In this document: positions 2,289 to 60,333 of the stretch, piece by piece | How positions within the stretch are numbered: position 1 is the first letter of the stretch | Layout of the letters: each line of letters opens with the position of its first letter | Source of the DNA: Loxodes magnus | Taxonomy: Eukaryota > Ciliophora > Karyorelictea > Loxodida > Loxodidae | Direction: 5' to 3' | DNA: 64,000 nucleotides | Assembly (NCBI GenBank): GCA_946699065.1 | Contig: CAMPDV010000703.1 | Span: forward strand, 124,001 to 188,000 | Notes under the pieces: generated by a model | The model's database searches: none | Seen by the model: only the letters and a program-made list of their open reading frames with translations | Told to the model about the DNA's origin: nothing | Program-made: the position numbers and the translations under genes

Positions 2289-3609
2289 GAAATCCTTGAG
2301 TACTAAAAAATAGGTTGGAACAATAAGATGGATGGCGCCCGAGTTATTCGGAATGAGGCCGAGGTATAGTATCTATTCTGATATATATGCTTATGGAGTT
2401 GTTTTATGGGAGATAATGTCTAGAAAAATACCTTTTGAGGAAGTAGAGGAAGGAGAGTTGCGAGAAGGGATAAAGAGAGGTGAAAGAGAGGAACTATCTG
2501 AGAATTGTGTGATAGAGGAGATAATAAGGGAGAGTTGAAAATAAGAGGCTGACCAAAGAATGAGTTTAGAAACGTCATTGTAGAAGTTAGAGAAGATCAA
2601 GCAAGAAATGAGAGAGTAGGAGATAATATAGCAAGAAATGAGAGAGTTCGAAATAATAAAGAGTAATGTGGAGAAATTTGAAGGAGAAGAGTAAAAGGAA
2701 GTTGGAACAAATAAGAAAGCGAAAGTACAAGAAAACGAGGTAGGATATGTTGGAGAGAAGAGAAATGGAAAGATGCATGGTTATGGAATTTATAAGTATA
2801 ACGATGGAGATCGATATGAAGGTCAATATGTAGAAGATCTTAAGTAAGGAAAAGGAACTGCTTATTTTGCAAGTGGAGCAATATATGAGGGTGAGTGGTT
2901 CAAAGGGAAGAGTCATGGTTATGGAATTTATAAGTATAACGATGGAGATCGATATGAAGGTCAATATGTAGAAGATCTTAAGTAAGGAAAAGGAACTGCT
3001 TATTTTGCAAGTGGAGCAATATATGAGGGTGAGTGGTTCAAAGGGAAGAGTCATGGGTATGGGGTTTATAAGTATAAGGATGGAGATCGATATGAAGGTT
3101 AATTTGTAGAAGGTCTTAGTTAAGGAAAAGGAACTTACTACTATGCAAATGGAGAAATATATGAGGGTGAGTACTTCAAAGACAAGAAGCATGGTTATGG
3201 AGTTTATAAGTATAAAGATGGATCTCGATATGAAGGTCAATGAGTAGAAGATCTTAAGTAAGGAAAAGGAACTTACTACTATGCAAATGGAGAAATATAT
3301 GAGGGTGAGTTTTTCAAAGGGAAGAGTCATGGTTATGGAGTTGAAAAGTATAACGATGGATCTCGATATGAAGGTTAATTTGTAGAAGATCTTAAGTAAG
3401 GAAAAGGAACTTATTACTATGCAAGTGGAGAAACATATGAGGGTGAGTTTTCCAAAGACAAGAGACATGGTTATGGGGTTTATAAGTATAAGAGTGGATC
3501 TCGATATGAAGGTCAATGAGTAGAAGGTCTTTAGCAAGGAAAAGTAACTTACTACTATGTTGATGGAAGAAAAGAGGTGCAAAATTGGAATAATGGGAAA
3601 AAAATATAA
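2289..3609 (+). pseudogene. 5'-truncated protein kinase-MORN copy
   Basis: This copy is homologous to the intact gene at 8214-9743 (minus) but begins just before the activation segment, so the ATP-binding loop, catalytic Lys and HRD loop are missing. It keeps RWMAPEL, the [13 protein letters not shown] region, a charged linker and six 138-bp tandem units, each encoding two MORN motifs (YEGQ and YEGE types); the intact gene has four units. In-frame TGA occurs at 2536-2538 (the conserved Trp of kinase subdomain XI) and at 3241-3243 and 3517-3519 (the aromatic position of the MORN motif). It ends TAA TAA at 3607, where the intact gene has TGA TAA. The reading frame is otherwise undamaged, so truncation is recent. 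The left boundary coincides with a SINE-like element. Confidence 0.8.
2775..3570 (+). repeat. 138-bp tandem repeat encoding MORN motifs, six units
   Basis: Units start near HGYG codons at about 2775, 2915, 3050, 3190, 3330 and 3465. Neighbouring units are almost identical in places, which indicates ongoing unit duplication or conversion. The repeat is coding, inside the kinase-MORN copy. Confidence 0.85.
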
Positions 3610-4925
3610 TAACTTAATTTTTTTATTTAATTTTGATTTATTACATTACTAAATGCTTTATATATATAAATTATCACCTTAGAAATAGTTCACTTAAAAT
3701 TATTTTTCTAAATTTCAATATATTAGATTGATTGAGATTTACTTGTTACATACTAAGATTGAACTAGCTAATTTAAATTTTAATCAAATAAAAAGAAATT
3801 TAGATATTTATCAAATAATCAAAAGAGAATCAATTATGTGATGATTCCATAGAGGATAGGGTACACAGAAAAGAATTTTTTGTTAACCAAAAATTAAAAA
3901 TAAATTTTAATTTTAATGTTTTGATAAAACCTAACCAAATTTTTAATATATGATTGAGGGTGATTTCTACGGAAAAAATAATTAGGGGAAATTAATTAAT
4001 GTAATATAATTAATTTGCTTCAAAAAGAGTCAAATAAAGATTTGGAAGGGGCTTATATAAAAAGCAATACCAAAGGTAAAAATAGAATAAGCAAGCATCG
4101 ATGTTTATTCCAAAATCTGTACCAAAAGAAAGAATTGAGCGATTTCAATGATTTTTACGATACTTCAAGAGACTTTGTATAAACTAACACGTGACATGAC
4201 AAGTAATTAAAATAAAGGAGATTTCATATTAATAAAAAAGTTATAAATTAATTATATTTAAAGATGTTATGCTTATGAATTAATTATTAAATAAATTTTA
4301 AGTTTAAGAAGCTATTATAAATATTGATATAAACTAATTAAAATTAAAATATATTTTTCTTATATATTTTTATTTAATTTTATTTATAAGATTTTATATT
4401 TTAAAAGTTACTAAAAGTATTTATCTCTATTATTTAAAATATGTCTAATAGAGTTATTTTATATATAGTAATTTAAAATAATTTGTAGAAATTAAACTTT
4501 ATTACTAGCAATTAATTGAATTTGCTTATACTTTGCTAGTAGAAAATATATATTAATGCCAATGCTAATTTTTCTATATTAAAGATAGGTAAAATATTGA
4601 ATTAAAAAATTATTGTTTGATATTAAATAACTTATAAAATAGTTTAGTTTAAAAACGCTAAGAAATAAAATTCAAAAATTCAAAAATTTAAAGCTAGAAA
4701 TTATTTAGAAAAATAAAAAATTAAATATCTTGAAAAAAAGTAAATTTGAACACTCTGTTAAGACATAATATGCATGTAGTTATATAATTATATATTTTTA
4801 TTTTATAACTTACTGATTAGCTAGTGTATATGTTTTTTTTTTATCAGTAGCAAGAAATTTTGATTTCATACAAAAAAGGATATTTTGTATATTTTATTTT
4901 ATATATTTTTTAAGAATTAAATATT
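3610..4925. other. AT-rich stretch without recognised gene
   Basis: Very AT-rich with homopolymer runs and no protein motif on either strand. Nothing was supported here. Confidence 0.5.
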
Positions 4926-5160
4926 AAATGATACATAGGAAATAAAAGTCATTTCTAATAAAGTCTAATAAGTCTTAGAAGGATATAGCCAACGATTTTT
5001 ATCGTTCATTGATGGAAAAAAATGCTAATAAGACAATTAGTGAGCTTTATTAAAGAACTTATGATTTTAATAACACTATGGAATTTTAATATCTGATCAT
5101 ATAATTTTAAGATAGGAGTTATACTAAACCTGTTGTTATAGCAAATTTAAGGAAAAATTT
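4926..5160 (+). CDS. Weak coding-like tract
   Basis: One frame reads as a charged, acidic-basic mixed sequence of about 70 residues beginning KSQKDIANDFYRSLMEKNA. No motif was recognised, no start codon is decided, and the tract fades into hydrophobic low-complexity sequence after about 5160. The 5160-5890 interval beyond it holds nothing recognisable. Confidence 0.2.
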
Positions 5161-5890
5161 CATAAAATGACTAAAAATTAAGGTAAATTTAAAATTCTAG
5201 AAACCTTAAGCCAGAACAATCCTATGAAAAAGTAATTTAAATAGAAAATAAATCTCCAACATAAGAGATTAAAATATGATAGCGATATAATATTAAGAAA
5301 AGTGGTCAATTTTTAGTCTTATTCTATTGATACTGGCAGATAAAAAAGCCATTCATTTAGCAATCATATTTGTATATTCGAAAATAGACTTCCTAATTTT
5401 TTTTCTTCAATATTTAGCATTAAATTGTCTGTCAAACACTTCAAATTAAATTTTTTTTCTTCTAAAGGTTCCCTTCCATTATGTAAGTTATTTACATTAA
5501 ATTGATACGAGTTAAAGTAAAGAATCGTACCTAATAATGTAATATGATTTCTTACTGCTTATGAAAACTATCTACCGTGTTTGTGGCTTAATGAGTTTGT
5601 TTCAGCTGTTTTCTCGGGATTGAAAGTTGCTAAGTCTAAGATTTTAAGATAAAGTTCAGAAGTTTGAACTTTTTTAACTGTTTTAACAAAAAATAAGTTT
5701 TTTGGAAAAATAGAAACTCAAATAATTGCTTATTTTTTGAAAAAAATTATATAAAAGAAGCCATTTAAAATAGGCTACATTTTTTTGGTTAATGCGCAAT
5801 TTAAATTAAAAGTGAAAAAGCAGGTTTATTTGAGAAGAAAAATTATTCAAAAAACTCATTATTTTAAAGCATAAATGTTTTTAATAAAAA

Positions 5891-5978
5891 AATACAGCTT
5901 GAAAATACAGCTTGAAAATACAGCTTGAAAATACAGCTTGAAAATACAGCTTGAAAATACAGCTTGAAAATACAGCGT
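5891..5978 (+). repeat. 13-bp minisatellite, about seven units
   Basis: Head-to-tail copies of AAAATACAGCTTG run without interruption and end two bases before a second minisatellite of different sequence. Confidence 0.95.
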
Positions 5979-5980
5979 GG

Positions 5981-6092
5981 GATTATACCCGCCGGATTAT
6001 ACCCGCCGGATTATACCCGCCGGATTATACCCGCCGGATTATACCCGCCGGATTATACCCGCCGGATTATACCCGCCGGATTATACCCGCCT
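5981..6092 (+). repeat. 14-bp GC-rich minisatellite, eight units
   Basis: Eight identical copies of GATTATACCCGCCG, the last missing one base. The unit is markedly more GC-rich than the surroundings and directly follows the 13-bp array. A short C run (CCACCCCCCCC, about 6110-6120) lies just downstream. A standard-code ORF across it is an artefact of the repeat. Confidence 0.97.
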
Positions 6093-6929
6093 TTTTAAAT
6101 AATAGCTCTCCACCCCCCCCGCTCGCAAGTTAACAAAAAATTCTAAAACAATACTATTGCCAAAAAAAATCAAAAGTTTGTTTTGTATATGCTTTATTGT
6201 TAAAATCTTATTTTGCTTTTTCCTCAAATATACATTGTTTTTTTCTAAGCTTCTATTTAAGTTGAAGATATTTTGAATATGATATCTCTGATACGTGAAT
6301 TACATAATAGGACTTTCTTTTTTTTTAATATTTAAATTCAAAATAGAAACATGCTTAGAACTTACTGCTTATATTTAAAATTATATAATTATTAATTATA
6401 CTTCCGAAATGTTGTTTTTACGCTGTCAAGATATACTTTTTTTAAATACCTTTAAACATTAAATATTAAATAATAAAACATATATTTAAAATAACGAAAT
6501 AATATTATTTTCCCCGAATAAAGTATAAAAGTTTAACACTGTATTTAAATTACTAAATTTTGTACATTTTATACTTTTATGATAATTATATTAAAAAACA
6601 ATTTTTTTTAATAACATTATTTATTGATTTGTAATTGCAATTTTGTTCATTAATATAGATTTATTAAATTAACATTAGTTTTTAATAATTTATGACTATG
6701 ATTAAACTTTAAAATATACATTATTTCGCAGTGTTAAGGTTTTTAAGCTTTAATTTTATCACAATAAGAATATTTTTTTATAATTTTACCAACTTTAAAA
6801 TTAATTTAAATATTAAATTTAAATATTAAATTTAAATATTAAAATTAAGTTAAGTTAAAAAAATTATAAGTAAATACATTGGATTGTATAATGCCTAACA
6901 CTTTAGTTGATGTGCAAAACTTTAAATTA
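6093..6929. other. AT-rich stretch without recognised gene
   Basis: Low-complexity A/T tracts apart from the short C run noted above. No coding or RNA signal was recognised. Confidence 0.5.
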
Positions 6930-7199
6930 ATTTTATTTAAATTCAAAAAAATTACGCGTTTCTATCTTTTTTTTCTTTCTGTAGTACGTCCCTGTAAGTT
7001 TTTCTTCATAATCAGATGCTGTAATATGAAAATACTGGTACATTTCCCAGACCTATGATGAATACAGTTTCCTTAAGTCAAATATAACTCTCAAGTTTGT
7101 CACATCTTTTTCTTTATCTCCGATTTATCCTCAGTCTGTTCCTATTTAATAATCGCTTTGTGGCCTCCAAGTAACATATACTGTAACTGTTTCTCTTTT
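6930..7199 (-). CDS. Exon-like coding segment, unassigned
   Basis: The minus strand encodes about 88 protein-like residues, from RETVTVYVTWRPQSDY through a middle with TGA read as Trp (TDWGQIG) to a basic end (YYRKKKKIETRNFFEF). Base composition is clearly richer in G and C than the flanks, and the protein-like composition stops abruptly at both edges. That would suit an internal exon or a gene fragment. I do not recognise a family. Frame choice rests on composition. Confidence 0.4.
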
Positions 7200-8213: not shown

Positions 8214-9743
8214 TCATATTTTTTTCCCATTATTCCAATTTTGCACTTCTTTTCTTCCATCAACATAGTAGTAAGTTCCTTTTCCTTACTAAAGACCTTC
8301 TACAAATTGGCCTTCATATCGAGATCCATCCTTATACTTATAAACTCCATAACCATGCATCTTGTCTTTGAAGTACTCACCCTCATATATTTCTCCACTT
8401 GCATAGTAGTAAGTTCCTTTTCCTTACTTAAGATCTTCTACTCATTGACCTTCATATCGAGATCCATCGTTATACTTTTCAACTCCATAACCATGACTCT
8501 TCCCTTTGAAAAACTCACCCTCATATATTGCTCCACTTGCATAGTAGTAAGTTCCTTTTCCTTACTTAAGATCTTCTACTCATTGACCTTCATATCGAGA
8601 TCCATCTTTATACTTATAAACCCCATAACCATGACTCTTCCCTTTGAAAAACTCACCCTCATATATTGCTCCACTTGCATAGTAGTAAGTTCCTTTCCCT
8701 TACTTAATACCTTCTACAAATTAACCTTCATATCGATCTCCATCCTTATACTTTTCAACTCCATAACCATGCATCTTTCCATTTCTCTTCTCTCCAACAT
8801 ATCCTACCTCGTTTTCTTGTACTTTCGCTTTCTTATTTGTTCCAACTTCCTTTTACTCTTCTCCTTCAAATTTCTCCACATTACTCTTTATTATTTCGAA
8901 CTCTCTCATTTCTTGTTATATTATCTCCTACTCTCTCATTTCTTGCTTGATCTTCTCTAACTTCTACAATGACGTTTCTAAACTCATTCTTTGGTCAGCC
9001 TCTTATTTTCAACTCTCCCTTATTATCTCCTCTATCACACAATTCTCAGATAGTTCCTCTCTTTCACCTCTCTTTATCCCTTCTCGCAACTCTCCTTCCT
9101 CTACTTCCTCAAAAGGTATTTTTCTAGACATTATCTCCCATAAAACAACTCCATAAGCATATATATCAGAATTGATACTATACCTCGGCCTCATTCCAAA
9201 TAACTCAGGCGCCATCCATCTTATTGTTCCAACCTATTTTTTAGTGCTTAAGGATTTCGATGCCAATTTTACTCTTGCTAATCCAAAATCGCATATTTTA
9301 GCATTTTTACTTTGATTTAAGAGTATATTCGCACTTTTTAAGTCCCTATGAATTATGTTGTTAGTGTGCAAATAAGATAATCCTGCTGCTATTTCCTGAG
9401 CTATTTCTAATTTCAGGTTTAAACTTATCTCTTATTTACTGTGAAGAAATTACATTAATGAGCATTACATCAATTCAACTATAATTCTTGTTGGCTCCAA
9501 ACTATAGCCATAAAATTAAATAATGTTAGGATGCTTTAAATTTTGCATAATTTAAATCTCTCTGCTGAACTCGCATTCGATATCTTCAGTTAGCATCCTT
9601 TGAAAAAATTCTTTTATTGCTACATTTGTGAATTTTTTCCATTTTCCTTTGTATACAGTACCGTAAGCTCCATGTCCAATTTCCTTTTCGATTTATAATT
9701 CTGATTAATCTATTTTGATATTTAGTTTTATACTACTTTCCAT
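8214..9743 (-). CDS. Protein kinase (TKL-like) with C-terminal MORN repeats
   Basis: An uninterrupted 1530-base frame runs from ATG at 9743 to TGA at 8214, 509 residues. Kinase landmarks: glycine loop GHGAYG (residues 23-28), VAIK with catalytic Lys44, [11 protein letters not shown] (132-142), DFG (152-154), RWMAPEL near 177 and [13 protein letters not shown]. The HRDLKSAN and RWMAPE forms point to the tyrosine-kinase-like group. TGA encodes residue 245, the conserved Trp of subdomain XI. A Glu/Lys-rich helical linker leads to about eight MORN motifs in four 46-residue units; two of them use TGA (8452-8454, 8580-8582) where paralogous units have Tyr or Phe. MORN repeats usually bind membranes or other proteins, so a membrane-linked signalling kinase is likely. 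All key catalytic residues are present. The ending ATA-TGA-TAA shows TGA also serving as a stop. Confidence 0.92.
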
Positions 9744-10254
9744 TCTAGTTATAATTAAAAATTTTATTTAATCTACATAAAAATAAATTATATTGAAAAT
9801 AAAATTGACAAATAAAATTTAATATTGTAAAATAAAATAACCATTAAATTAAAAAAGCAATATTCTATATAAATAATAATAAATTATAAACTAATTTTAT
9901 ATTTTTAAATATATTCAAAATTACCTTTAGAATATTTTTTTAACTACTTTCATATTTAAAATATAATGATATTTATTTTTTTATTAACAATTATTTTTTA
10001 AAAGTTCAATTCTAATTAGATTAAAATTTAGAAAAAAAGTTTATAAATAAAAGTATATATGCTAAGTTTAAAACAATAAATAAAAACATATGTAAATAGT
10101 TAAATTATTAAATTAAACAAAATATATATATATCAAATTAACTTGTAAATTCGTATTTTAAAAAATTAAAACAATTATTTGCAAAAAAATTGAAAATTCT
10201 AGTTATAAACATTCGATAACAAATATAATAATATTATATTGAAATAACATTAAT
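9744..10254. other. AT-rich upstream region of kinase-MORN gene
   Basis: A/T tracts only. It would hold the promoter of the minus-strand kinase gene, but no defined element can be pointed to. Confidence 0.4.
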
Positions 10255-12680: not shown

Positions 12681-12705
12681 TTTATATCAATGTTGAATAG
12701 TAAAA

Positions 12706-12738
12706 GAGCTGCGCACTATCGAAGTGCTCCGCGCTCTC
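12706..12738 (+). repeat. Shared 3' hairpin (type C)
   Basis: GAGCTGCGCAC-TATCGAA-GTGCTCCGCGCTC can fold into a bulged stem-loop. Near-identical hairpins occur at 2225, 21928, 22750 (minus), 23546, 24053 and 46305, each after a different body. The type-A element at 12756 was inserted immediately after this copy. Confidence 0.75.
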
Positions 12739-12755
12739 TAAACTAATTTTTAATT
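12739..12755 (+). repeat. 17-bp target-site duplication, left
   Basis: TAAACTAATTTTTAATT is repeated exactly at 13068-13084 and brackets the first type-A element. Confidence 0.85.
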
Positions 12756-13067
12756 AATTAATTTCAACTAAAAAAGTTTTTGGACCGGGAACTCCTTTCC
12801 GATTGCACGACCCGACGCTCTCTTTTTATGGAATAACGGGGATATCCTGTTGTGCTCCAGGCACAGCTGCTAGGGAGCTCCATCGCTATGAGCTGCCAGG
12901 CTTCAAGCCCCTAACAAGAGCGGATAATCTCAAAGACAGTGTTCCCTTCAGAAAATGACTCTGACCAGGGACTTTCTCAGCGACAGGAAAGGAACTTGTT
13001 CCTAGCCATAAAACCAGAAAGTGTTGTCACGAAGGCCATTCTCAGCTCCCACCATCTTTTCAATTAT
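12756..13067 (+). mobile_element. Structured SINE-like element, type A, copy 1
   Basis: A 312-bp GC-richer element bounded by an exact 17-bp TSD. It matches 14132-14441 across its length. Predicted hairpins: GGGAA/TTTCC (12787-12800), TGTGC/GCACA (12851-12865), GGCTT/AAGCC (12899-12909) and GGAAC/GTTCC (12991-13002). The first two have entirely different sequences in copy 2 yet still pair; the last two are invariant. It ends CTCCCACCATCTTTT. There is no ORF. It is a non-coding retroposed RNA gene family by inference; the parental RNA is not recognised. Confidence 0.8.
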
Positions 13068-14131: not shown

Positions 14132-14441
14132 TTTTTAATTTCAACTTAAAGAGTTTTGGACTGCAACTTCTTGCAGTTTAACGACCCCAACACTCCCTTC
14201 ATGGGATAACGGGGATATCCTGTTGCTTTCGACAAGCAGCTGCCAGGGAGTTCCATCGCTATGGGCAGCCAGGCTTCAAGCCCCTACCAGGAGTGGATAA
14301 TCAAGAGGAAGGCATTCCCTTGCAAAGGTTGACTTTGACCAGGGACTTTCTCAGCGACAGGAAAGGAACTTGTTCCTAGCCATAAAACCAGAAAGTATGA
14401 TTCAGAAGGTCAATCTCAGCTCCCACCATCTTTTTAATTAT
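14132..14441 (+). mobile_element. Structured SINE-like element, type A, copy 2
   Basis: A 310-bp element with its own exact 16-bp TSD, so it is an insertion independent of copy 1. Hairpins: CTGCA/TGCAG (14161-14176) and TGCTT/AAGCA (14224-14238) replace the differently sequenced hairpins of copy 1. GGCTT/AAGCC (14272-14282) and GGAAC/GTTCC (14365-14376) are conserved. Long invariant stretches include CAGGGACTTTCTCAGCGACA. It ends CTCCCACCATCTTTTT. Confidence 0.8.
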
Positions 14442-14565: not shown

Positions 14566-14785
14566 TCTTAAACATATCTTAAACATATCTTAAACATATC
14601 TTAAACATATCTTAAACATATCTTAAACATATCTTAAACATATCTTAAACATATCTTAAACATATCTTAAACATATCTTAAACATATCTTAAACATATCT
14701 TAAACAAATCTTAAGCATACCTTAAATATACTCTTTAAATATCTTAAACATACCTTAAATATATCTTAAACAATCCTAAACACTT
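14566..14785 (+). repeat. 11-bp tandem repeat, about twelve perfect units plus decayed ones
   Basis: CTTAAACATAT is repeated perfectly to about 14700, then continues as degenerate copies (AAATC, GCATAC and AAATATA variants) to about 14785. Confidence 0.95.
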
Positions 14786-20989: not shown

Positions 20990-21006
20990 ATATATGTAAT
21001 TAATAA
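20990..21006 (+). repeat. 17-bp target-site duplication, left
   Basis: ATATATGTAATTAATAA recurs at 21848-21864 around the minus-strand zinc-knuckle element. The right end of this copy merges with the (AAT)n tail, so one or two bases are uncertain. Confidence 0.75.
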
Positions 21007-21847
21007 TAATAATAATAATAATATACTTAAAGTTAGTAGAGTTTTGCATTCTCTGGAATTGCAACCAGTTCCTGCGGACAGCTTTTTTAACGTGGGTGTG
21101 ATCCACGACCTTTTTATTAAGTGGAAGGTTACCACTGTAACCGTTCAAGTGGTCTTGCAAAAAGCTTTTATTTGTAGATCCCTGTTGGAGTTATTCATAG
21201 TTTATTGAGTTGTCTCCATGTTCTTTTCTGCTCTTATTCGTTTATTTTCTTTCACTATCAACAGTTTTTTAAAATATGTTGATTTGATTTGCAACATCAA
21301 CAAAGTTTGTATTATTGTCTTTATTTCGTTCTTTTTTATGATAATTTATTTTCTATATTTTCTAATCTTTTAATGAAACTTGTAGCAATCATTTCTTTTT
21401 CTGGATTCAATTCTGTTTTTAATTCTATTGGTATTTTTTCTATTTCCATTTTTGTGTCGTATTTAAAATTTTATTATGATTAAGTTCAGAGTTATTCTTC
21501 CGTTATTAATTTGCTACAAATAAGTTATCTTCTAAGTATTAGTAATTCGTTGTTCTAATCTTCTATATTACTCATTAGTTCCCGTATTTTTTCGCCTAAG
21601 TTGTAAGTTGTTTCTTCATAATTTGAGATTACTTTTTACATTTGGTCTAATTAAATTTAAAATTTTTGATTAGTTTCGTTTTTAGGTTAACTTATCTCTA
21701 TTTATCCTACCATAACTTTACCTTCTGAAGAAGAGCTTGACTCCTCCTATTGTTATTATTTTTTCTAAATTTCTTTTGCCGCTTTTCTCTTTAGGTTTCT
21801 AAGTTAATTTTTTGAGAGTCGAAGAGATTAATCCATTTTTTTTTTAT
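21007..21847 (-). mobile_element. Zinc-knuckle ORF retroelement, copy 1
   Basis: Nearly identical (I count only a handful of substitutions) to 45036-45873 in inverse orientation. It starts about ten A-rich bases before ATG 21836, carries one ORF, then two conserved hairpins (GTGG/CCAC and CGTGG/CCACG) and an (ATT)n tail. The 17-bp TSD differs from those of the other copies, so it is an independent insertion. The simple-repeat 3' tail and variable TSD point to target-primed reverse transcription. It encodes no reverse transcriptase, so it would depend on one in trans. Confidence 0.85.
21010..21836 (-). CDS. Zinc-knuckle (gag/ORF1-like) protein
   Basis: From ATG at 21836 (MDQSLRLSKNQLRNLKRKA): a basic N-terminal helix, a Gln run, an acidic-Ser patch, a coiled-coil region (NLGEKIRELMSNIEDQNNE), then a CX2CX4HX4C zinc knuckle with TGA at the second position. 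Six in-frame TGA codons all fall where Trp is suitable. Such proteins coat the element RNA and act as nucleic-acid chaperones. The ORF runs into the 3' hairpins and no clear stop is decided. The protein is essentially the same as that encoded at 45046. Confidence 0.75.
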
Positions 21848-21864: not shown

Positions 21865-21927
21865 GAAAAACATTTCTATTGCCTGAAGACTTACTTTAAG
21901 TAACGGAAATATTTTGAAGTATGGAAA

Positions 21928-21966
21928 GAGTTGCGCACCAACGAGGTGCTACGCGCTCTATAATCA
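21928..21966 (+). repeat. Shared 3' hairpin (type C)
   Basis: GAGTTGCGCACC-AACGA-GGTGCTACGCGCTC followed by TATAATC and an A/T tail. The body before it (about 21865-21925) is short and has only a small TTACTTTAAGTAA palindrome, so this is probably a truncated element. Confidence 0.75.
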
Positions 21967-22194
21967 AATTAATTTATTAATTTAATATTTATTTATATAT
22001 TAACATAGCTTATTATATTATATTAAGAAGAATCAACCTTTATTTGGCTAGATTTTTTATAAATTTTTTATCATCAATAAGTTTCAAAATTGTAATATTC
22101 TAGTTTCTTTAATAGTAAATTCTTATAACTTTCTCCTCTTGTTAGTTATTGAAAATCAAAGCAGCACTATCATTTCTTGAATTGTCTCATAATC

Positions 22195-23279: not shown

Positions 23280-23580
23280 GGGAGGAACAATTCTCCTACT
23301 GAAACTGACTTAAACTCTGGTACAAGAAGTACCCCATAGGTGAAAAATCAGCTAAGAGAAGAGAAGAGAAGACAAGATCGAAGAGGCATCAAGTAGCATT
23401 AATAATGAAAGATGTCAGATACTAAGGTCTCTTAGGCTAGCATTCCGATTGTAGTTTTATAAAAGACAAAACTCACAAGAGAATGCTATCATTATGGAAG
23501 ATTTCAGCAAATAATTATTTTATCTTTAAAATTCTTAATTAAATAACTGCGCAGCGTTGAGGTGCTACGCGCTCTATAAT
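23280..23580 (+). mobile_element. Structured element, type D, copy 2
   Basis: Opens with GGAGGA-ACAAT-TCTCC, then GGTAC-AAGAA-GTACC, and shares AGGCATCAAGTA with the minus-strand relative. It closes with the type-C hairpin (GCGCAGCGTTGAGGTGCTACGC, 23549 on) and TCTATAATC. Stem sequences differ from the other copy while pairing is kept. Confidence 0.5.
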
Positions 23581-23639
23581 CTCATTTTATTATAAAATAT
23601 TTTTATTATATATTAAATAGTTGTTCGAAGGTGAGCAAC

Positions 23640-24092
23640 AAGGTCATCTTCATCAGAGGTTGGGGAAGTTAAGTACCCATAATCGACTTTATGTCTTCCT
23701 CTGCTTTGGTTTGGCTTTGAGACATAAGATTCTTAGACCTTCGGCACTGGCTTAGTTTAACTTTAAGTCTGGAACGAAAAAGAAATAATATTGCGAGCTT
23801 CATCAGAGGTGGGGAATTTAAGTACCTATAATTGACACATGTCTTCCTCTGCTTTGGTGATGCAATGAGACACAATCCTGCCATGTCCTTGGACCTCCAA
23901 CAAGTATTAAAATTACGAGTAATCTTAAATTATATCAGTATTGAACATTTTTATCAGTACTGAATAATTATACCAGTATTGAACAAGTTTACCAGTATCT
24001 GATAATTTTATCAGTAACAAACATTCTTGTCAGTATGAAACATTTTTTTTAAAGAGCTGCGCACCAATGAGAGTGGTACGCGCTCTATAATC
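23640..24092 (+). mobile_element. Dimeric element, type B, copy 2, with minisatellite and 3' hairpin
   Basis: Two tandem units contain TTCATCAGAGGT...TAAGTACC...GTCTTCCTCTGCTTTGG. Each has CAGAGG paired with CCTCTG (23654-23703 and 23804-23851). They are followed by a decayed 20-bp repeat (23931-24043) and the type-C hairpin at 24053-24086. A standard-code ORF on the minus strand at 23669-23884 is an artefact of the dimer. Confidence 0.55.
23931..24043 (+). repeat. Imperfect 20-bp tandem repeat, about six units
   Basis: Variants of TATCAGTATTGAACATTTT. The motif CAGTA recurs at roughly 20-base spacing. It lies between the type-B dimer and the terminal hairpin. Confidence 0.75.
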
Positions 24093-24329
24093 AAATTTAT
24101 TTATTTATCTTTTTAAATTCAATAATAAAAAGATTATCAAATGATGCATTACTAAAAAAATACTTTGCTCGCTTTATTTTGAAAAAATAATTAATACTGA
24201 ATGAATGAAGTTACTCGCTTAAAGTATTTTAGAAAATAATTTTGTTTTAAATTTAGTATAAACTAATTACTAAGCAGTCAATAATAATTAAAAAAATAGT
24301 AATCAAAAACTTAAAATTATATATCTTCT

Positions 24330-24712
24330 AACTATTAGCTTTCATATCAATCTTCATCGTTATACTTATAAACTCCATATCCACGCATCTTCCCTTTGAA
24401 CCACTCATCCTCATATATTCCTCCATCTGTATAGTAGCAAGTTCCTTTTCTTTGCTTAAGATATTTTTTTTACTCATTGACATTCATATCGAAATCCATT
24501 CTTATACTTATAAAATCCATATCCATGACTCTTCCCTTTGAAGTACTCACCCTCATATATTTCTCCATTTGCAAAATAAAAAGTTCTTTTTCCTTAACTG
24601 ATATCTTCTACAAATTGACCTTCATATCGAGATTCAACCTTATATCTATAAACTCCATAACCATTATTCTTTCCTTTGAAGTGCTCGCCCTCCTGCAATA
24701 TTTCACATATTA
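24330..24712 (-). pseudogene. MORN-repeat gene fragment
   Basis: The minus strand encodes about two and a half 46-residue MORN units like those of the kinase-MORN gene ([15 protein letters not shown] and YEGEYF are visible), with more substitutions, a Cys replacing a conserved Gly, and a frameshift in an A-rich run near 24460. No kinase domain accompanies it. A decayed fragment of the same family. Confidence 0.8.
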
Positions 24713-45020: not shown

Positions 45021-45021
45021 A

Positions 45022-45035: not shown

Positions 45036-45873
45036 GAATAAAAAAATGGATTAATCTCTTCGACTCTCAAAAAATTAACTTAGAAACCTAAAGAGAAAAG
45101 CGGCAAAAGAAATTTAGAAAAAATAATAACAATAGGAGGAGTCAAGCTCTTCTTCAGAAGGTAAAGTTATGGTAGGATAAATAGAGATAAGTTAACCTAA
45201 AAACGAAACTAATCAAAAACTTTAAATTTAATTAGACCAAATATAAAAATTAATCTCAAATTATGAAGAACCAACTTACAACTTAGGCGAAAAAATACGG
45301 GAACTAATGAGTAACATAGAAGATTAGAACAACGAATTACTAATACTTAGAAGATAACTTATTTGTAGCAAATTAATAACGGAAGAATAACTCTGAACTT
45401 AATCATAATAAAATTTTAAATACGACACAAAAATGGAAATAGAAAAAATACCAATAGAATTAAAAACAGAATTGAATCCAGAAAAAGAAATGATTGCTAC
45501 AAGTTTCATTAAAAGATTAGAAAATATAGAAAATAAATTATCATAAAAAAGAACGAAATAAAGACAATAATACAAACTTTGTTGATGTTGCAAATCAAAT
45601 TAACATATTTTAAAAAACTGTTGATAATGAAAGAAAATAAACGAATAAGAGCAGAAAAGAACATGGAGACAACTCAATAAACTATGAATAACTCCAACAG
45701 GGATCTACAAATAAAAGCTTTTTGCAAGACCACTTGAACGGCTACAGTGGTAACCTTCCACTTAATAAAAAGGTCGTGGATCACACCCACGTTAAAAAAA
45801 CTGTCCGCAGGAACTGGTTGCAATTCCAGAGAATGCAAAACTCTACTAACTTTAAGTATATTATTATTATTAT
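45036..45873 (+). mobile_element. Zinc-knuckle ORF retroelement, copy 2
   Basis: An 838-bp insertion bounded by an exact 14-bp TSD. It begins GAATAAAAAA-ATGG, encodes one ORF, then hairpins GTGG/CCAC and CGTGG/CCACG, and ends in (TTA)n. Nearly identical to the inverse copy at 21007-21847. Both 5' ends lie about ten bases before the ATG, suggesting that this is the natural 5' end of the element rather than truncation. Confidence 0.88.
45046..45870 (+). CDS. Zinc-knuckle (gag/ORF1-like) protein
   Basis: ATG 45046, MDQSLRLSKNQLRNL. Coiled coil NLGEKIRELMSNIEDQ, then knuckle C-[TGA]-C-C-K-S-N-Q-H-I-L-K-N-C (45580-45621), then QKRTWRQLNKL and a basic tail. Comparison with the ORF at 46870 puts TGA 45583-45585 opposite TGG 47398-47400, and TGG 45664-45666 opposite TGA 47479-47481. 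A further TGA (45394-45396, after EQL) is matched by TGA at 47212-47214. These alignments show that TGA is read as Trp. Predicted role: RNA-binding protein of a non-LTR element. Confidence 0.78.
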
Positions 45874-45887
45874 TATAAGATAAATAA
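45874..45887 (+). repeat. 14-bp target-site duplication, right
   Basis: Exact copy of 45022-45035. Confidence 0.88.
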
Positions 45888-45943: not shown

Positions 45944-46345
45944 CATGTCGGCTGCGTCAGTCAAACTAGTAGGTAATCTGGTGCAGTGTATACTGCATTG
46001 CGAGTAATCTCGCACTAGATGCCACCACGGGAAGGGTGGATAAGCTCTGTTGAGACGTACCTAACTTACCCCGAGGGTTCTCACTAGCAGTATGAAAGTT
46101 TGACTGACGGGCCTTCTAATTACCAACTTAATAACTATCTATTATTTGGATCTTATTCAAGAAGACTGAAGCATTTGATTCAAGATTTTAGAATAATTTT
46201 TAATAAGAAGGTTTCCCATTTGGAGAAGCTGACATGACTCATCGGACCTCTAGAATTTAACAAGAATCATGAGAACATTTTTAAATATTAAATATTAATA
46301 TTGAAAGAGCTGAGTGCCATCGAGGTGCTACGCGCTCTATAATCA
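45944..46345 (+). mobile_element. SINE-like element, type E, copy 2
   Basis: A relative of 1868-2287. Here GTCAGTCAAA (45956-45965) is perfectly complementary to TTTGACTGAC (46099-46108), closing a domain that contains TGCAGT-GTAT-ACTGCA, TGCGAG-TAAT-CTCGCA (45999-46014) and a CCACC/GGGTGG hairpin. It ends with the type-C hairpin (GAGCTGAGTGCC-ATCGA-GGTGCTACGCGCTC) and TATAATC. Non-coding. A highly structured tRNA-like or other small-RNA-derived SINE is inferred. Confidence 0.6.
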
Positions 46346-46508
46346 TTTTTATTTATTTATAAAAGTTTACTAAATGTAATCCCTAATATTTAGTATTCAA
46401 GGAAGAAAAAGTTTTAAGTATGTAACTTCATTAGGGTGGAATTGAAGAAAGTAAAGCAAGAACAATAAATTAAGAATAAAATTAAATAATAATCTAATTA
46501 TTTGAAGA

Positions 46509-46864: not shown

Positions 46865-47687
46865 AAAAGATGTTAAGCAAGCAGTAGAAAATTGAAGCAA
46901 AGAAAGCCAGAAAGCTTGCACAAAAGCAAATATAACATCAAATAAAAGAACTTACCGACCCTGACTCTCCTCCATCGGTAAAAAGAAAGCGCCTTGAAGG
47001 GAATACTAAGGAGCAGGAATCTGATACAATCGGATCATTAAGCAATCAAATTTGACTTATGAAGAAAAATTTCTAAAAGCAGGATGAGGTAATATTTAAT
47101 CTTGCGGAAAAGATAAGGGAACTCCTAAATACAATTGAAGAACTTAATTAGGAAACAAACTGTTTAAGGAATCAACTGATACAAAGTCAAGTAGTGACTA
47201 AAGAACAACTCTGACTATAATCCTAATCTAGATCTAACAAAGTTGACAGAATGGACATTGAATAAGAATAAAAAACATAGAACTAATAGAATTAATAAGA
47301 ATTGAAATAAGAATAGAATCTAATAGCTAGAATAGAAAAGATAGAGAGCCACTTATATCCAGAATTCAAGCCTTAAATCACCAAATATAGAAGATGCTGG
47401 TTCTGCCATTCAAATAACCATTTACTGAAGACTTGCCAAAGCTTTAAGTATCTAAAGAGAAAGGAAGATCAAAAGACGTGAAGATAACTTACAAGACTAT
47501 ACGTAACTCCATAAGGAGCATTCAAGAAGAAGATTTCCAACGGAACAAGAAGATTATCATAGTGGTTACCTCCCACTTAAAAAACTTGGTCGTGGTTTCC
47601 ACCACGTTAAAAAACTGGCAGCGAGAACCTGGTTTAGATTCCAAGGAACGTAAACTTTTCTTTACTTTTAGTTTACTATATATATAT
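46865..47687 (+). mobile_element. Zinc-knuckle ORF retroelement, copy 3 (nested, divergent)
   Basis: An 823-bp insertion with an exact 18-bp TSD inside an older relative. It has the same architecture as copies 1 and 2 (A-rich start, ORF, GTGG/CCCAC and CGTGG/CCACG hairpins) but the sequence is strongly diverged and the tail is (TA)n. It therefore represents a separate subfamily. Confidence 0.88.
46870..47680 (+). CDS. Zinc-knuckle (gag/ORF1-like) protein, second subfamily
   Basis: ATG 46870, MLSKQQKIEAKKARKLAQKQ: basic helix, Pro/Ser linker with a KRKR basic cluster, coiled coil (FNLAEKIRELLNTIEELNQE), Gln-rich spacer, then CWFCHSNNHLLKTC (47395-47436), a textbook CX2CX4HX4C knuckle, followed by KYLKRKEDQKT-[TGA]-RQL. 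Three in-frame TGA codons. A likely RNA-binding ORF1 protein, intact as far as can be judged. Confidence 0.78.
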
Positions 47688-47705
47688 ATAATTATTCCAA
47701 TAAAA
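47688..47705 (+). repeat. 18-bp target-site duplication, right
   Basis: Exact copy of 46847-46864. Confidence 0.9.
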
Positions 47706-51900: not shown

Positions 51901-51929
51901 AATTTTTAACTTTTCAAAATTTAAGAAAT

Positions 51930-52800
51930 TCAAGAAATTCAAGAAATTATTGAGTATATTCTAAACGGCAAGGCAGCTGACCAGATGAAATAAAGAGTAA
52001 ATTTATCAAGTGTGCTGGAGAAGAGATACAATTAATAATGCACTGTTTTATCAATAATATGTTAAACTCTAAAGAATTACATAAAATCTGAATACATCCA
52101 TCATTATCTCTATCTTAAAAAAAGGTAGTAAGAGTAGTTGAAAAAACTGAAGACCAATTTCGCTTATTAATACTATATTGAAGATCTTCTACAAGACTTT
52201 AACAGAAAGGATTTACAAAATTTTTTAGAACGTAACCTCATACTTCCTACTTAATTGGGATTCCTCAAAATGAAACAGCAGCATCTAAATATGATCATTG
52301 TAGCAGATTATTGACCTCTATTACAGAGGAGGAAAAGGCTCAACAAAGATGTTAGAGACTTTTATTTATGTCGAGAAGATGCTTGACAGCATTGAGAGAA
52401 GGACACTTTTTCAACATCTTAGGAGATTAAAACTACATCTGGGATTGATACTGGCGCTAGAGTCTTTCTACAATAACATTAATTCCTCTTTTCTCATAGA
52501 TTACAAGATTATCGCAGACTTCATTACAACAACGGAGTAATGCAAGGAAGACACATGGTCCTGTATTTTCACTCCTTTATTATGATATAGTAATCAGACA
52601 TTTGCAGAAAAAACACACAATTAGGCAACAATCTACATAATATAAGCTTCGTATGCAGAGCATGGGCAGATGACTTTATACTCCTTTCTTTTTCTGTTTA
52701 GAAGATGTAATAACTTATAGATTAATGCATCTGAATTTTTCGGTGGATTTTTCTATAAATAAACTCTAGTAAATGTGAATTATTCCAATTTGCTCAAAAA
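51930..52800 (+). pseudogene. Non-LTR (LINE) reverse transcriptase fragment, frameshifted
   Basis: Landmarks in order, in shifting frames: LNGKAADQMK (family form KNGKAAGPD, about 51970); FIKCAGEEIQL; KELHKI-[TGA]-I (52089-52091, normally the Trp of the P-x-x-W motif); IIISILKKGSK; N-[TGA]-RPISLINT (TGA 52148-52150, the NWRPISL motif); TERIYKI; DSIERRTLFQHLRRL; NNGVMQG; and the catalytic motif WADDFILLS (about 52665), followed by INSSKCELFQF. At least three frame changes make it non-functional. Endonuclease and RNase H were not seen. It shows that LINE machinery has existed in this genome and could mobilise the ORF-only elements. Confidence 0.8.
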
Positions 52801-55620: not shown

Positions 55621-55627
55621 CAAACAA

Positions 55628-56010
55628 AAAGTAAGAATCAAGAATCAAGAGAAAAGATTAGAGAATGTGCCAACCTTTTCAACTGCTATATTGCTGTCTC
55701 CTATTTAAGAGTTTAGAAAATCTATTAACAGAAGATTTAGTTTCATATATCTAATCATAACAGATATAAACCAATCAAATCCAGAACCTACTATCGCCAG
55801 AGTTTAAGACTTTAAGATCAAAATATAACAGAAGACTTTCAATAAACTAATCTAGTCAAGTATCTAATGAGTAAATTTGATCTAATTAGTGTCTACAGTT
55901 GTTATCAAATGAACACCAAAGGTTTCTCATACGTAATTAATAAAATAATCAAAATTCCATCATTCATTTGATTTGATAAACTTATGTCTCTGTATAAATA
56001 ATAAATAGCT
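55628..56010 (+). CDS. Coding-like tract, frame ambiguous
   Basis: Two frames read well: one with SREKIRECANLFNCYIAV, one with EKRLENVPTFSTAILLSP and DINQSNPEPTIARVQDF. The second looks more natural. No motif. Included because composition differs from the flanks. Confidence 0.25.
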
Positions 56011-56639
56011 AAATAGCTTTGAATTTGATTTAAACTAAAGCTAATTAATAAGCCTTCATACCTTTAAACTAATTAGTAATTATACTATGAGACTATTTAA
56101 TTTCTAGTTGTTTGATTCTATTAAATTCATATTCATATATTCATTATATATGAAAATGAGTGACATAATCAACTTATAAGCTTAATCTTGAGATTTACCA
56201 TCACTTTATTACCTTTAAGTGTATCTCAGAATCAAACTTTGAAGACTTCTCTTTATTAAACTCAATCTTCTTCGAAAGAAGATACTCAGAGTGGAATAAT
56301 CGTAGACAAAGAATTGTTAAGACTTAAGATTACTCAACTCAAGTAAGTTTCTATCACTTAGTTACCTAATTTTCAACTACGATTAAGTAGTTGCTAGAAG
56401 TTTAAATAATATCAGTAGAAAGTATTATCACCTTTCGTTTTTATGTAATTGGTTAGCTGAAGAAAGAGTAGCATAGAACAAAGAATAGCTACAACTATTA
56501 TTCGCTAGAGATAAGAATTATACTTTAGCTTGTACAGATTTACAATCAATCTATTAAATATGCAGAGCCATTTTAATAATAAAAAAACCTTCAACTCGCA
56601 TATTTAGCTTAATATTACTATAAAATCCTCATCTTGCAG

Positions 56640-56960
56640 CTTCTCTCTGCAAAATTTAAAAAGATTAGACTAATTTAGAATCAAATAAAACTAAAGAAAC
56701 AATTTCCTAAAATAAGTAGAACAAAAGGCAAATTAAAAACAGTAGATGTAATAGCAGTAGCCTGAGTCATAAATGTAACTGCTAGATATCAAATAAAGAA
56801 TCCACATGCGATTACTACTTTGGAAGCGTCTACAAAAAAATGTTAATATTTTGCCTTTAATCTTGAGGTATACGAAGGAGATTAACATCAAGTTACTCAG
56901 TAAGAAAGAATTTCTTGATAATGTATTTTTAAAGAATTAAATTGGTAAGTTTCTATTTAA
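56640..56960 (+). CDS. Coding-like tract
   Basis: One frame gives QIKNPHAITTLEAS then FAFNLEVYEGDQHQVTQQ. The VYEGD stretch recalls the substrate-binding domain of Hsp70 but lacks its usual spacing. Treated as unassigned. Confidence 0.25.
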
Positions 56961-57119
56961 ATTTTGAATGATTATATAAATAAATAAACAAATGAAGGAA
57001 AAATTAAATGCTTCAGTAACATTTTCATAATTAATTTAATAATCTATCTGTGCTTCTTTATTATTTTCTTATTAATTTTAAGATTATTAAATTTAGATAT
57101 CTTAACTTATGATTTATTC

Positions 57120-57985
57120 TTAGTTTTTATATTCTTTTTCCTTTAGTTTGCTTTAATCTAATTTTATTTGCTATAAAGATTATAGAATTTCTTAAATATT
57201 AGGTATTTCTTTATAATTGTAACTTAAGCATTTCCTTAATAACTCTTCTAAATTTTTATTTTCTTTTATTTCATCTGAAAATTATGGAGTTTATCTCTAA
57301 TTTACTATCAAATTTCTTATTTATTCAGGTGTGCAATTTTAGAGTCATAGAAGAGATTCATTAAATATTTCTATAGCAATACAAGCTAATGATCAAATAT
57401 CGCTTTATTTATAAAGCTTAAATTAAAACTATTCAGGAGCCATTCACTGAACTGTTCCTCTACCTTGCTCTGTAAATTCAATTTTATCCTTTCTTGTTAA
57501 ACCTAAGTCAGCTATTTTAGGACTATCATTATCATTTAGAAGAATGCTATAAGATTTTAAATCTCTGTGTATTAAATTAGCATTATGAATGGCACTCACT
57601 CCTTCTGTAATTTATTATAAAAGTCTTAATTTCTTTTCAAATCTTTATTTTTTATCTTTAACCTCTTGAAAAAGTTTTTTACTTTATATGATATTGTATA
57701 AATTTCCTTTCTATTAGAAATTAGTAATGATACATAAAATAAGTTCTTATTCATGTTTTTCTACTACTACTCCTATAAGTCTAAGTACTCTTGTATCATT
57801 AACACTAAGAAGTGATTAACATTCTTGATAAAAGTCGATTAGAAATTATTGCTCATCAGTTCCTTTCTTTTGGATTATTACTTTTAAAGCATATTCTATA
57901 TTTTCTATTTCTATTTTATAGACAATAGCTTATCCTCCTCTTCCAATTACTTAAAGTTAGTTTAACACTTTATTATATAAAATAA
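57120..57985 (-). CDS. Protein kinase domain, 5' end missing or separated
   Basis: The minus strand carries an almost complete kinase domain of about 280 residues: glycine loop GRGGQAIVYK, YALKVI with the catalytic Lys, HRDLKSYSILL, DLG in place of DFG, GTVQ-[TGA]-MAPEQ (TGA 57444-57446 at the Trp of WMAPE) and KQSDI-[TGA]-SLA (57393-57395, Trp of SDIWS). The end, CLSYNYKEIPNIQEIL, is subdomain XI with the conserved Arg changed. HRDLKS is as in TKL-type kinases. No ATG precedes the domain: seven bases upstream lies the start of a plus-strand zinc-knuckle ORF. Either a 5' exon is missing or the gene was split by that insertion. Confidence 0.8.
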
Positions 57986-57991
57986 ATAAAA

Positions 57992-58830
57992 TGGCACCTA
58001 AGAAATAATAGACCTCTATTAACGAATACTTGAAAAAATAAGAATAACCTAATTTAATTGAAGAATAGCCTTAATAAGATAAAGATTAATAATCTAAGGA
58101 ATCCTTTGCATAATCAGTTCAGCAAAGGATATCAAATATCCAATATTACTTGAAAAAGCAAAGATAAAAAATAGAAAATTTAGAAAACTTAAAAATTAAT
58201 GGAATAATTAAACCTATAATTCCCATCCATAGATGAATCATTAAATAAAATCTAATCGTAAATAGTAATTAAATTGGAATAAATTGATAAATAATTTAAC
58301 GAAGTCCCTCAAATGTTCCAATTTCATTTTTCTTAAATTGAATATCAAATAAAGCAACTTTAAGAAAAACAAGAATAATAACAAGTAATAATTTAAAAAT
58401 TATAAGATTAATAAGATTAATAATCAAATATCCCAATGGAAATCGAATCGGAATTCTAATAATAAGAAATAAATAAGATCAATTATTATCGCAAAAAGAT
58501 TCGGTGCTATTTATGCTAGAAAAATCATTGCTGGAAAAAATGCTGGAAGAAACAAGAAATTGAAAAATTAACAAGTAATAAATATTAGACTAACTTTTCA
58601 GAATATGATCAACAAGAACAGGATAAGTATACAGAAAGAAATTCTACAACTCAAGAAACAAAGAGTTTTATAAAAATGGAAGAAGAAACTATAACGATAA
58701 TTAGTGGATGAGGGAGAGACAAGGATGGCGGACTAATGTAGTCCTACGCAGTCCTTTAGTTCAGGAAAGAGCAGGAACAAAAACAAGTGAACCCTGGAGC
58801 TCTTTTCTAAGACTATAAACTTAATTTTAT
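57992..58830 (+). CDS. Zinc-knuckle retroelement ORF, third type
   Basis: ATG 57992 after an A-rich leader, MAPKKQQTSINEYLKKQEQ. A coiled coil (IKLEQIDKQFNEVPQMFQF) follows one frame change in an A run near 58195, then RKKIRCYLCQKNHCWKKC (knuckle 58505-58543, CX2CX3HX4C) and an acidic tail with GWGRDKDGGLM (TGA as Trp). Same plan as the other ORF elements but unrelated in detail. The frame change may be a one-base indel or a programmed shift. No TSD was identified. Confidence 0.55.
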
Positions 58831-58836
58831 CCTTTT

Positions 58837-60333
58837 TTATTTTTTTTTATAAGGAATAAGATCTTTATATAACCATATTCTTATATAAGCTTAAGGTAAA
58901 GAATTAGCTCCATATTTCTCTAATAACTTCATCACATCTTCTAGAGTATATTTTTAACTTTAAATACCCTTTAATCTTAATTATGGTTGAATATTTACTT
59001 AGTTGATTTAATTATAATTAAAGTTTTACTACTATTAAAGTTAATATTTTCTATTATTCTATTAATTAATTTCTTATTCCTTTTTATTAATAATTTAGTT
59101 AAAAGCTGAAATTTTTAAATCACAATCTTTTAGTTTACCATTTAAATCATTTATTTAGTTTTTTAACTATGAAATGCTTTATTATTATTATAGTATCTAG
59201 TTTTCTTGATTCTGACTATTTTGTTAGTTTTTTTAAATTATTAAATTTAATTCATTTATTTGCTAGTTCAACTATTTAAACTAAGTCTCTTGAGACTAAT
59301 TTGTTTATTAGTTTTTTTAATATTATAAGATATATTATCTTAATTATTCTTCTTTAGATTTAAGATCAGATTTCATTTTTGTTTATTATGTCTCCACTTC
59401 TTTTAGCTATTAGGACAAACTTTATAATTATTAGTTTAATTAGTTATTATTATCTTCTGCTTAGTTTAACTATTTTTGTAATACTTATTTTTCTTAATTC
59501 TTAATTTAGTCAAAATCATTTATTTATTAAAGATATTACTTATTTTATGATTCTAAATTATTAATTTATGAATCTAAATTTTTATTTTTTCCTTTTAGTT
59601 CTTAAATTTCCTTGCTTTACTGTGAAAATTATTAAGATTATTAATCTTAATTTTCTTTTAATTATCTAATTAAATTCTAGTTTTGCTCTTCTAGTTGTAA
59701 TATCTTTTCTTACCTTTGATTAATAGATTTTTCTTAGTCTCTAATTTTTTAATTTAGATCATTTATTTATTAAGTTTAACTACTTATCTAACTAAGTACT
59801 TAGCTTAATTCACTATTTAGTTCTTAATTTTACTGTTTTAACTTATCTATTTAAGAATTTAAAATTTCACATTATACTTCTTAATTTACTAGAGAAATTT
59901 ACTAAAAAGGACTTTTAAATTATCGCGCTAAGTAATTTTATGGCTATTATTAGTTTATTATACGTTAGCTATTGATTATTTACTCAGCTTATTCCAAAAT
60001 CATTTAGCTATACTAAGAAAATGATTATTTTTATTTTTCTTAGTAATTAGAATTGTTAACTTAATTTTCCGTACTCGTTTGAGAGTTAAAAGATTATATG
60101 CTATCTAATTTAAATATGAGATCATACTACTTAAAAGCTTGATTATAAGCCTCTTCACTAATTCTTTAGTTGTCGAGTTATGTCTATTATAAAGTTTAGT
60201 TCGATGAATTTTAAACAATATGTTTTATGAAGTCTAGAAATTGCAAAGATTTCTCTTGAAGCGTGAGTATTTCTTGTCTTCCTTTTAAGATTATTTAATT
60301 CAGATATTGTAAATCATAATTGTTTTCATTCAT
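58837..60333 (-). CDS. Gln/Asn-rich coiled-coil protein
   Basis: ATG at 60333 (MNENNYDLQYLNQIILKGRQ) to TAA at 58837 is 1497 bases in one frame, 498 residues, needing TAA and TAG as Gln throughout and containing no TGA that I found. The N-terminal about 150 residues look globular (LQEKSLQFLDFIKHIVQ, EEAYNQAFKQYDLIFKL). A long heptad coiled coil follows (NDLNQKIRDQEKSINQ, then LESQNKQYLQQINDFDQIKN) and a short C-terminal module YTLEDVMKLLEKYGAN with IRIWLYKDLIPY. Probably a cytoskeletal or scaffold protein, by inference from coiled coil only. If TGA alone were a stop the frame would run on into low-quality sequence, so TAA is the likely terminator. Confidence 0.7.

Follow-up and report, generated by a model that had tools for sequence, protein, structure and literature searches.

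The stretch of DNA analysed here, 64,000 nucleotides (nt) of the Loxodes magnus contig CAMPDV010000703.1 (positions 124,001 to 188,000, referred to below as the window), is almost certainly nuclear DNA of a karyorelict ciliate, from the L. magnus macronuclear assembly, written in the ambiguous genetic code of NCBI table 27. The sequence shows that TAA and TAG inside genes are glutamine codons, that TGA there is a tryptophan codon, and that TGA also ends genes. A first-pass annotation had proposed that all three stop codons are sense codons in this DNA, and from the code it had deduced a karyorelict-type ciliate. This deduction holds, as do the three sense meanings in the window kinases, in 68 kinases from the genome and in the release factor eRF1. 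What had been missed is that TGA doubles as a stop, which makes the code table 27. The code, its use in L. magnus and the likely tRNA mechanism are already known, since they have been published for Loxodes (passages of PMC11441545, PMC13092985 and PMC12005148), and they are real and ordinary for the group. The value here lies in confirming a known code by independent routes, and in a warning for the annotation of such contigs: codes in which every codon is potentially sense break the rule of dedicated stops, and gene finders must use context.

The assignments were tested in protein kinases. In the kinase domain near the end of the window (kinase B; Table 1), two TGA codons fall on invariant tryptophans, as had been claimed. 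The codon at 57444 is the Trp of GTVQ-W-MAPE and that at 57393 the Trp of SDI-W-SL, both aligned to Trp in LCK and EGFR chains, and a third TGA (57345) occupies no conserved position. When all 20 amino acids were tried for TGA, the best score was obtained with Trp (130.6 bits), followed by Tyr (123.9), Phe (122.3) and His (120.7). When TAA and TAG were jointly set to each of the 20, Gln (130.6) preceded Lys (124.7), Arg (122.3) and Glu (121.5), and setting only TAG to Glu gave 129.9 bits.

The codon-to-residue inference that the first-pass annotation had suggested as a check was performed with kinases from the whole 705,730,643-base assembly that contains the window. A total of 136 matches were scored (of 5,592 candidates), only one of which had no stop-like codon, and the best-scoring 68 of the 136 were used for the inference, in which each codon was compared with the sense codons of its column-mates and no outside homologue was involved. 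This assigned TGA to Trp (195 bits, next Phe with 23; 48 of 66 TGA scored), TAA to Gln (216 bits, next Lys with 91; 328 of 330 scored) and TAG likewise to Gln (136 bits, next Lys with 56; 155 of 159 scored), with Glu outside the top three for both TAA and TAG. Three Trp columns hold 49 of the 66 TGA codons, and 18 TGA of one such column went unscored, as fewer than 20 sense codons were left there. In a control with each sense codon withheld from its own profile, 50 of 58 were recovered (the misses were AAA, AGA, ATT, CAA, CAG, GAA, GAT and TAT, with CAA and CAG being lost because of the withholding); the control could not cover ATG and TGG. The strand was chosen by a motif score, on which 11 of the 68 kinases were flagged as weak but retained.

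These kinases also bear out the expectation that annotation with the standard code or with table 6 (Tetrahymena/Paramecium) would cut genes. Under the standard code all 68 domains would be interrupted, and 41 of them hold an in-frame TGA, so that TGA is not solely a stop here and table 6 would cut them as well. One could still suppose that the frames are pseudogenes or decayed retroelements of an organism with the ordinary code, in which stops accumulated by mutation, and the window indeed shows much decay (a broken reverse transcriptase, a truncated kinase copy and a broken MORN fragment). We give this idea practically no credence, since eRF1 and histone genes carry such codons; moreover, stop-like codons are present in 68 of 68 kinase domains, where the columns that they occupy are those of Gln and Trp. 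Under the table 27 reading, selection is purifying: the ratio of nonsynonymous to synonymous substitution rates (dN/dS) is 0.113 for a pair of eRF1 genes (0.97 and 1.78 in the other two same-strand frames) and 0.337 for a pair of kinase-MORN genes (1.74 and 0.74 in the other two).

The second window kinase is joined to MORN repeats. The intact kinase-MORN gene scores 210.3 bits with the Pfam model PK_Tyr_Ser-Thr (PF07714) and 161.6 bits with the MORN model; it contains 15 TAA, four TAG and three TGA codons in frame (the latter at 9009, 8580 and 8442), and its G+C content (GC) is 33.5%, as compared to 6% in the next 100 nt. Two kinases had been reported at 2536 and 9009, but these are copies of one gene, and TGA 2536 is not a second witness, since it is the same residue as 9009 in a 94% identical inverted copy. 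The codon at 9009 is strong evidence in itself, since both EGFR and the Src-Abl ancestor have Trp at the aligned position (B-Raf has Leu). Of 10 amino acids tried for TGA in this gene, Trp was best on PF07714 (210.3 bits, next Tyr with 205.9) and on the MORN model (161.6 bits, next Phe with 159.5). Twelve MORN repeats, including a frame-broken one, were compared: one column reads CAA nine times and TAA three times, another TAA 11 times and CAA once, and an aromatic column reads TTT (5), TGA (5) or TAT (2). We also aligned four more copies from the genome with the window gene. In these five copies, TGA occurs in 19 internal columns, seven of which also have TGG, the partners in other columns being Tyr, Phe, Arg, Leu, Lys, Cys or Asn; over 116 pair cells, TGA faced TGA 34 times, Trp 25, Tyr 22, Arg 9 and Phe 8 times, and others less often.

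Several results from this family weigh against the proposed assignments. On the PF00069 model, Leu (180.6 bits), Tyr (180.3) and Cys (180.1) scored slightly above Trp (179.8) for TGA. For TAA and TAG, where eight other joint assignments and two mixed ones were tried, Gln and Lys tied on PF07714 (210.3 bits each) and Glu exceeded Gln on the MORN model (163.0 versus 161.6 bits). A TAG in one MORN-repeat column sits among AAG (7), AGT (2) and TCT (1). In the five-copy alignment, TAA faced TAA in 156 of 373 pair cells and Gln in 48, with Glu close behind (43), and for TAG the commonest sense partner was Glu (25 of 88 cells, besides TAG 20, Lys 14 and Gln 8). According to these partner counts the family backs Trp well and Gln weakly, and the kinase-MORN gene by itself cannot separate Gln from Glu or Lys. 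Gln was chosen because kinase B and the genome kinases decide.

The MORN score and the TAG partners are what could be said for a code like that of Blastocrithidia or of peritrichs, with TGA as Trp and TAA and TAG as Glu. However, kinase B prefers Gln (130.6 versus 121.5 bits), the 68 kinases put Gln first, TAA and CAA are swapped at two fixed MORN-repeat sites, the GGQ motif of eRF1 uses TAA, and the bodies of the tRNAs with UUA and CUA anticodons are Gln-like. We give Glu for TAA and TAG practically no credence, and rejected it on kinase B and the genome kinases.

The kinase-MORN family has some further features. Twelve pairs of a full gene and an inverted truncated copy, the latter starting near residue 161, were present among the matches listed; their members lie 5-7 kilobases (kb) apart in 11 pairs and ∼14 kb apart in one, on contigs C703, C288, C668, C1414, C1328, C2136, C782 and C1056. 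Full genes are ∼81-93 kb apart on C288 and ∼75 kb apart on C703. From this repeated spacing, it seems that a very large unit has been duplicated and that the window belongs to it. Among genome contigs, a single relative of the MORN part turned up, a bacterial one (locus L001). Viral contigs, scanned three times by protein and once by exact pattern, yielded no relative, and phage records held nothing closer than distant kinases.

We next consider termination, for which eRF1 is informative. The assembly contains two eRF1 genes (L041 and L042; 436 codons), with a score of 530 bits against the human protein (PDB chain 1dt9_A). L042 has 15 TAA and six TAG codons in frame, the Gln of the GGQ motif is written TAA in both copies, and both genes end in DEDFL-TGA near the C-terminus of 1dt9_A, with a further TGA three codons on. 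Relative to 1dt9_A the changes E55A, T58R, S60Q, L124F and Y125F were observed; Y125F presumably favours UGA. Changes in eRF1 had been among the proposed checks of the code, and the residues that sense UAA and UAG (UAR) are indeed altered. The eRF1 of Paramecium, a factor said to read only UGA, likewise lacks Glu55 and Thr58 (a passage of PMC5681627). Most species with UAR as Gln have Phe at position 126 (as stated in part of PMC4482090), and the Leu126 kept here is a point against the reading given above; UGA specificity, if reached, came without a change at 126.

TGA stands at or near the expected end of the intact kinase-MORN gene, of both eRF1 genes and of all but one of 30 histone-fold loci (29 of 30; of 31 matches, one was not cut out), and the kinase-MORN copy L152 ends in TGA too. 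All five canonical H3 genes end in GERT-TGA. TAG was found at none of the expected ends of the 30 histone-fold, two eRF1 and four kinase-MORN genes. The expected end was the conserved end of family or sister genes, judged by eye, and the end used for counting was the first in-frame TGA past match codon 60 (the second for L125). With ends so defined, it holds by construction that all genes end in TGA, and the evidence consists of the agreement with the ends of family and sister genes. Two NF-YC-like histone-fold genes (L124 and L125, so named by likeness) have TGA at what we take to be the conserved Trp before a KRRT motif, one more likely case of TGA as Trp outside kinases.

Not all ends fit. 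The H3 variant L111 ends in GEKHLTDM TAA TAA TAA, with no TGA for ∼165 codons; its sister L109 ends in TGA, and L108, which is among the 29, has TAA and then TGA five codons on. TAA also occupies the stop position in the kinase-MORN copy L153 and in the truncated window copy, where it aligns (3607-3609) with the stop TGA of the intact gene, the next in-frame TGA being at 3634. These three copies speak against a fully sense UAA, which may not be pure sense everywhere. In addition, TAA was depleted in the last 20 codons of 32 genes (29 histone-fold, two eRF1 and the kinase-MORN gene, with L111 left out): 5 of 640 codons as compared to 125 of 4686 earlier ones (p=0.002). TAG showed no significant depletion (6 of 640 versus 81 of 4686, p=0.18), CAA plus CAG was flat toward the ends (14 versus 110, p=0.89), and TGA (0 of 640 versus 6 of 4686) was too rare to judge and low by construction. 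The p-values are generous, since the gene set includes close paralogues. The pattern equals that published for L. magnus, where UGA and UAA but not UAG are depleted before stops and 3' untranslated regions are short (from passages of PMC11441545). On the strength of the depletion and the three TAA ends, UAA might keep a weak, position-dependent stop function in Loxodes. Two codons would then have a double meaning, and the code would be intermediate between those of tables 27 and 28; we consider this unlikely, if less so than any of the other alternatives discussed. The few genes listed here as ended by TAA offer a way of asking if UAA is wholly a sense codon.

The same observations (the ends of L111, L153 and the truncated window copy, and the scarcity of TAA before stops) could be taken further, to the Condylostoma-type code of table 28, in which the sense meanings are identical and all three codons are also stops near transcript ends. 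This is very unlikely, given the TGA ends listed above, the loss of Glu55 and Tyr125 from eRF1 and the absence of significant TAG depletion; L. magnus has also been published as a UGA-only species (in the passages of PMC11441545). In Condylostoma magnum, termination was proposed to depend on nearness to the transcript end (part of PMC4967479). By this account the sense meanings and termination near transcript ends are shared with that ciliate, but UAA and UAG are stops there as well, whereas TGA ends genes here, with rare exceptions.

Returning to table 27, pattern searches pointed to candidate decoding tRNAs. Gln-like tRNAs with a CUA arm gave 92 matches (control 0), and four of four fetched were tRNAs; a UUA arm gave 228 matches (control 16), with four of five fetched being tRNAs. 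Loci L138 and L139 hold two further UUA candidates, the latter with an extra loop base. Rfam scored a tRNA in 11 of 12 loci tested. ARAGORN labels the UUA and CUA tRNAs 'Stop' or 'Pyl', and we take them to be Gln tRNAs from the likeness of their bodies to Gln tRNAs. For tRNA-Trp(CCA) there were 127 matches (control 0); of the 100 listed, nearly all form tandem arrays, on contigs C67 and C148. ARAGORN drew an anticodon stem of four base pairs for four array genes, which come from L133 and L135, and this arm recurs in L134, while L136 gave no tRNA. The stem of a diverged copy (L137) has five pairs, so that the short stem is not common to all tRNA-Trp(CCA) genes, a point against the mechanism. 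A tRNA-Trp(UCA), another of the proposed checks, was not found with two narrow patterns: one gave a single match that by eye was not tRNA-like, versus six in the reversed control, and the other, the UCA form of the genome's own anticodon arm, gave none versus seven. A first tRNA-Trp pattern was discarded, none of its 15 matches being tRNA-like by eye. A generic tRNA search, in which 63 of 42,786 candidates were scored, led to 30 loci, of which 11 scanned ones hold tRNA-Lys(TTT), two of them with an adjacent tRNA-Ala(TGC).

In the mechanism that we propose, UAA and UAG would be read by Gln tRNAs with the anticodons UUA and CUA, and UGA would be read as a near-cognate codon by tRNA-Trp(CCA) with an anticodon stem of four instead of five pairs. 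An eRF1 that has lost residues sensing UAA and UAG would then terminate at UGA near the mRNA 3' end. The paper on the Loxodes genome (PMC11441545) has no occurrence of the word tRNA in its main text, and a short-stem tRNA-Trp in Loxodes is cited in passages of PMC13092985 and PMC12005148. As to arrangement, tandem arrays of tRNA genes or arms were seen on contigs C67, C148, C130, C214, C78 and C103, with spacings of ∼187 and 241 nt for Trp(CCA), 588 nt for the Gln-like CUA, ∼275 nt for the Gln-like UUA and ∼527 and 1753 nt for Lys(UUU)-type hits.

The published L. magnus macronuclear assembly comprises 706 Mbp and is described, in the passages of PMC11441545, as using table 27 with UGA as sole stop, a coding GC of 33.5% and thousands of domains of the long interspersed nuclear element (LINE) type. 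Our data agree in TAA and TAG as Gln, TGA as Trp or stop, TGA as the usual stop, the LINE-type elements and the coding GC, which is the same in the intact kinase-MORN gene. Against these parts of the paper no difference was established; a few TAA codons stand at stop positions here. The first-pass annotation had stated that only karyorelicts and Condylostoma have this combination. That list is incomplete, as passages of PMC6394959 (2019) give Amoebophrya sp. ex Karlodinium veneficum, a syndinean, the same assignments with UGA as sole stop; those of PMC12005148 (2025) leave its stop or stops open. Amoebophrya resembles Loxodes in the assignments, in cognate tRNAs for UAA and UAG and in a tRNA-Trp(CCA) with a 4-base-pair stem (one in Amoebophrya), with no UGA-cognate tRNA there, but it is related to dinoflagellates and came by the code independently (both papers, in the same passages). 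An origin of the window from such a syndinean would fit the assignments, the UGA stop and the short-stem tRNA-Trp, yet it is highly improbable, as the coding GC matches the L. magnus macronuclear assembly. Blastocrithidia nonstop shares TGA as Trp and the 4-base-pair-stem tRNA-Trp(CCA) but differs in reading UAR as Glu and in having UAA as stop (passages of PMC13092985 and PMC12005148).

The remaining claims concerned other parts of the window. A script readout found the codon named by the first-pass annotation at 11 of 11 cited coordinates (Table 1). The alternation of TGA and TGG between zinc-knuckle paralogues is real (45583 versus 47398; 45664 versus 47479): the knuckle reads C-TGA-CC in one and C-TGG-FC in the other, and a W-R-Q-L motif reads TGG-R-CAA-L and TGA-R-TAA-L, respectively. 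Over the whole of these poorly alignable frames the sense partners of TAA were mixed (Lys 7, Ser 5, Glu 5, Gln 4, Ile 4, Leu 4, and others). The two near-identical zinc-knuckle copies differ by nine codon changes, including one TAA/CAA and one TAA/TAG. TGA 47788 is present in C-W-Y-C as described, but is weak evidence, having no aligned partner. The reverse transcriptase codons at 52089 and 52148 are likewise present but prove little, as the two are read in separate frames of an element that has decayed and that had no Pfam match in the frames tested. The coiled-coil-like frame is as dense in TAA (93) and TAG (26) as had been reported, besides 20 CAA, eight CAG and no TGA, and had no Pfam match above cut-off. 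Pfam was run on 20 window segments, picked with a self-trained codon scan used for that alone, and no models besides kinase and MORN exceeded the curated cut-offs. ARAGORN and Rfam found no RNA genes in the window.

Table 1. Positions of the features and codons discussed (window coordinates unless a contig is named).
Feature	Position	Strand	Remarks
Truncated kinase-MORN copy	2289..3636	+	5'-truncated, inverted; 94% identical to the intact gene (repeat search)
Intact kinase-MORN gene	8214..9743	-	509 codons plus stop TGA 8214-8216, then TAA
Copy of the 45046 zinc-knuckle frame	21006..21845	-	99% identical
Third MORN fragment	24372..24704	-	Frame-broken; MORN 25.1 bits, cut-off 22.5
Zinc-knuckle frame, like retroelement open reading frame 1 (ORF1)	45046..45880	+	TGA 45583, TGG 45664; end approximate
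Diverged zinc-knuckle paralogue	46870..47700	+	TGG 47398, TGA 47479; end approximate
Decayed LINE-type reverse transcriptase	52080..52680	+	Motif scan: N-TGA-RPISL 52148, ADD ∼52663 in another frame; limits approximate
Kinase B domain	57009..57944	-	Pfam 130.6 bits; domain limits, not gene ends
Gln-rich coiled-coil-like frame	58810..60807	-	666 codons; frame limits, not gene ends
TGA sites confirmed	2536, 52089, 52148, 45583, 47479, 47788	+	
TGA sites confirmed	9009, 57444, 57393	-	
TGG sites confirmed	47398, 45664	+	Fit both zinc-knuckle alternations claimed
H3 variant L111	C327:221690 onwards		TAA-ended gene, intron, indel or decaying copy

The window also contains several repeats. A 62-nt element with a G+C-rich hairpin occurs in six copies (2217-2278, 12698-12759, 21920-21981, 23536-23597, 24047-24108 and 46299-46360), some of them directly after retroelement-like segments, and may represent the 3' terminus of a LINE or of a short interspersed nuclear element. 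Direct repeats at 12820-13067 and 14193-14441, 79-91% identical and ∼1.37 kb apart, are perhaps the ends of a small element. Finally, perfect tandem repeats, one of a 13-nt unit in 6.8 copies and one of a 14-nt unit in 8, were found at 5889-6091 and 14566-14782, along with an 11-nt array of ∼20 copies.

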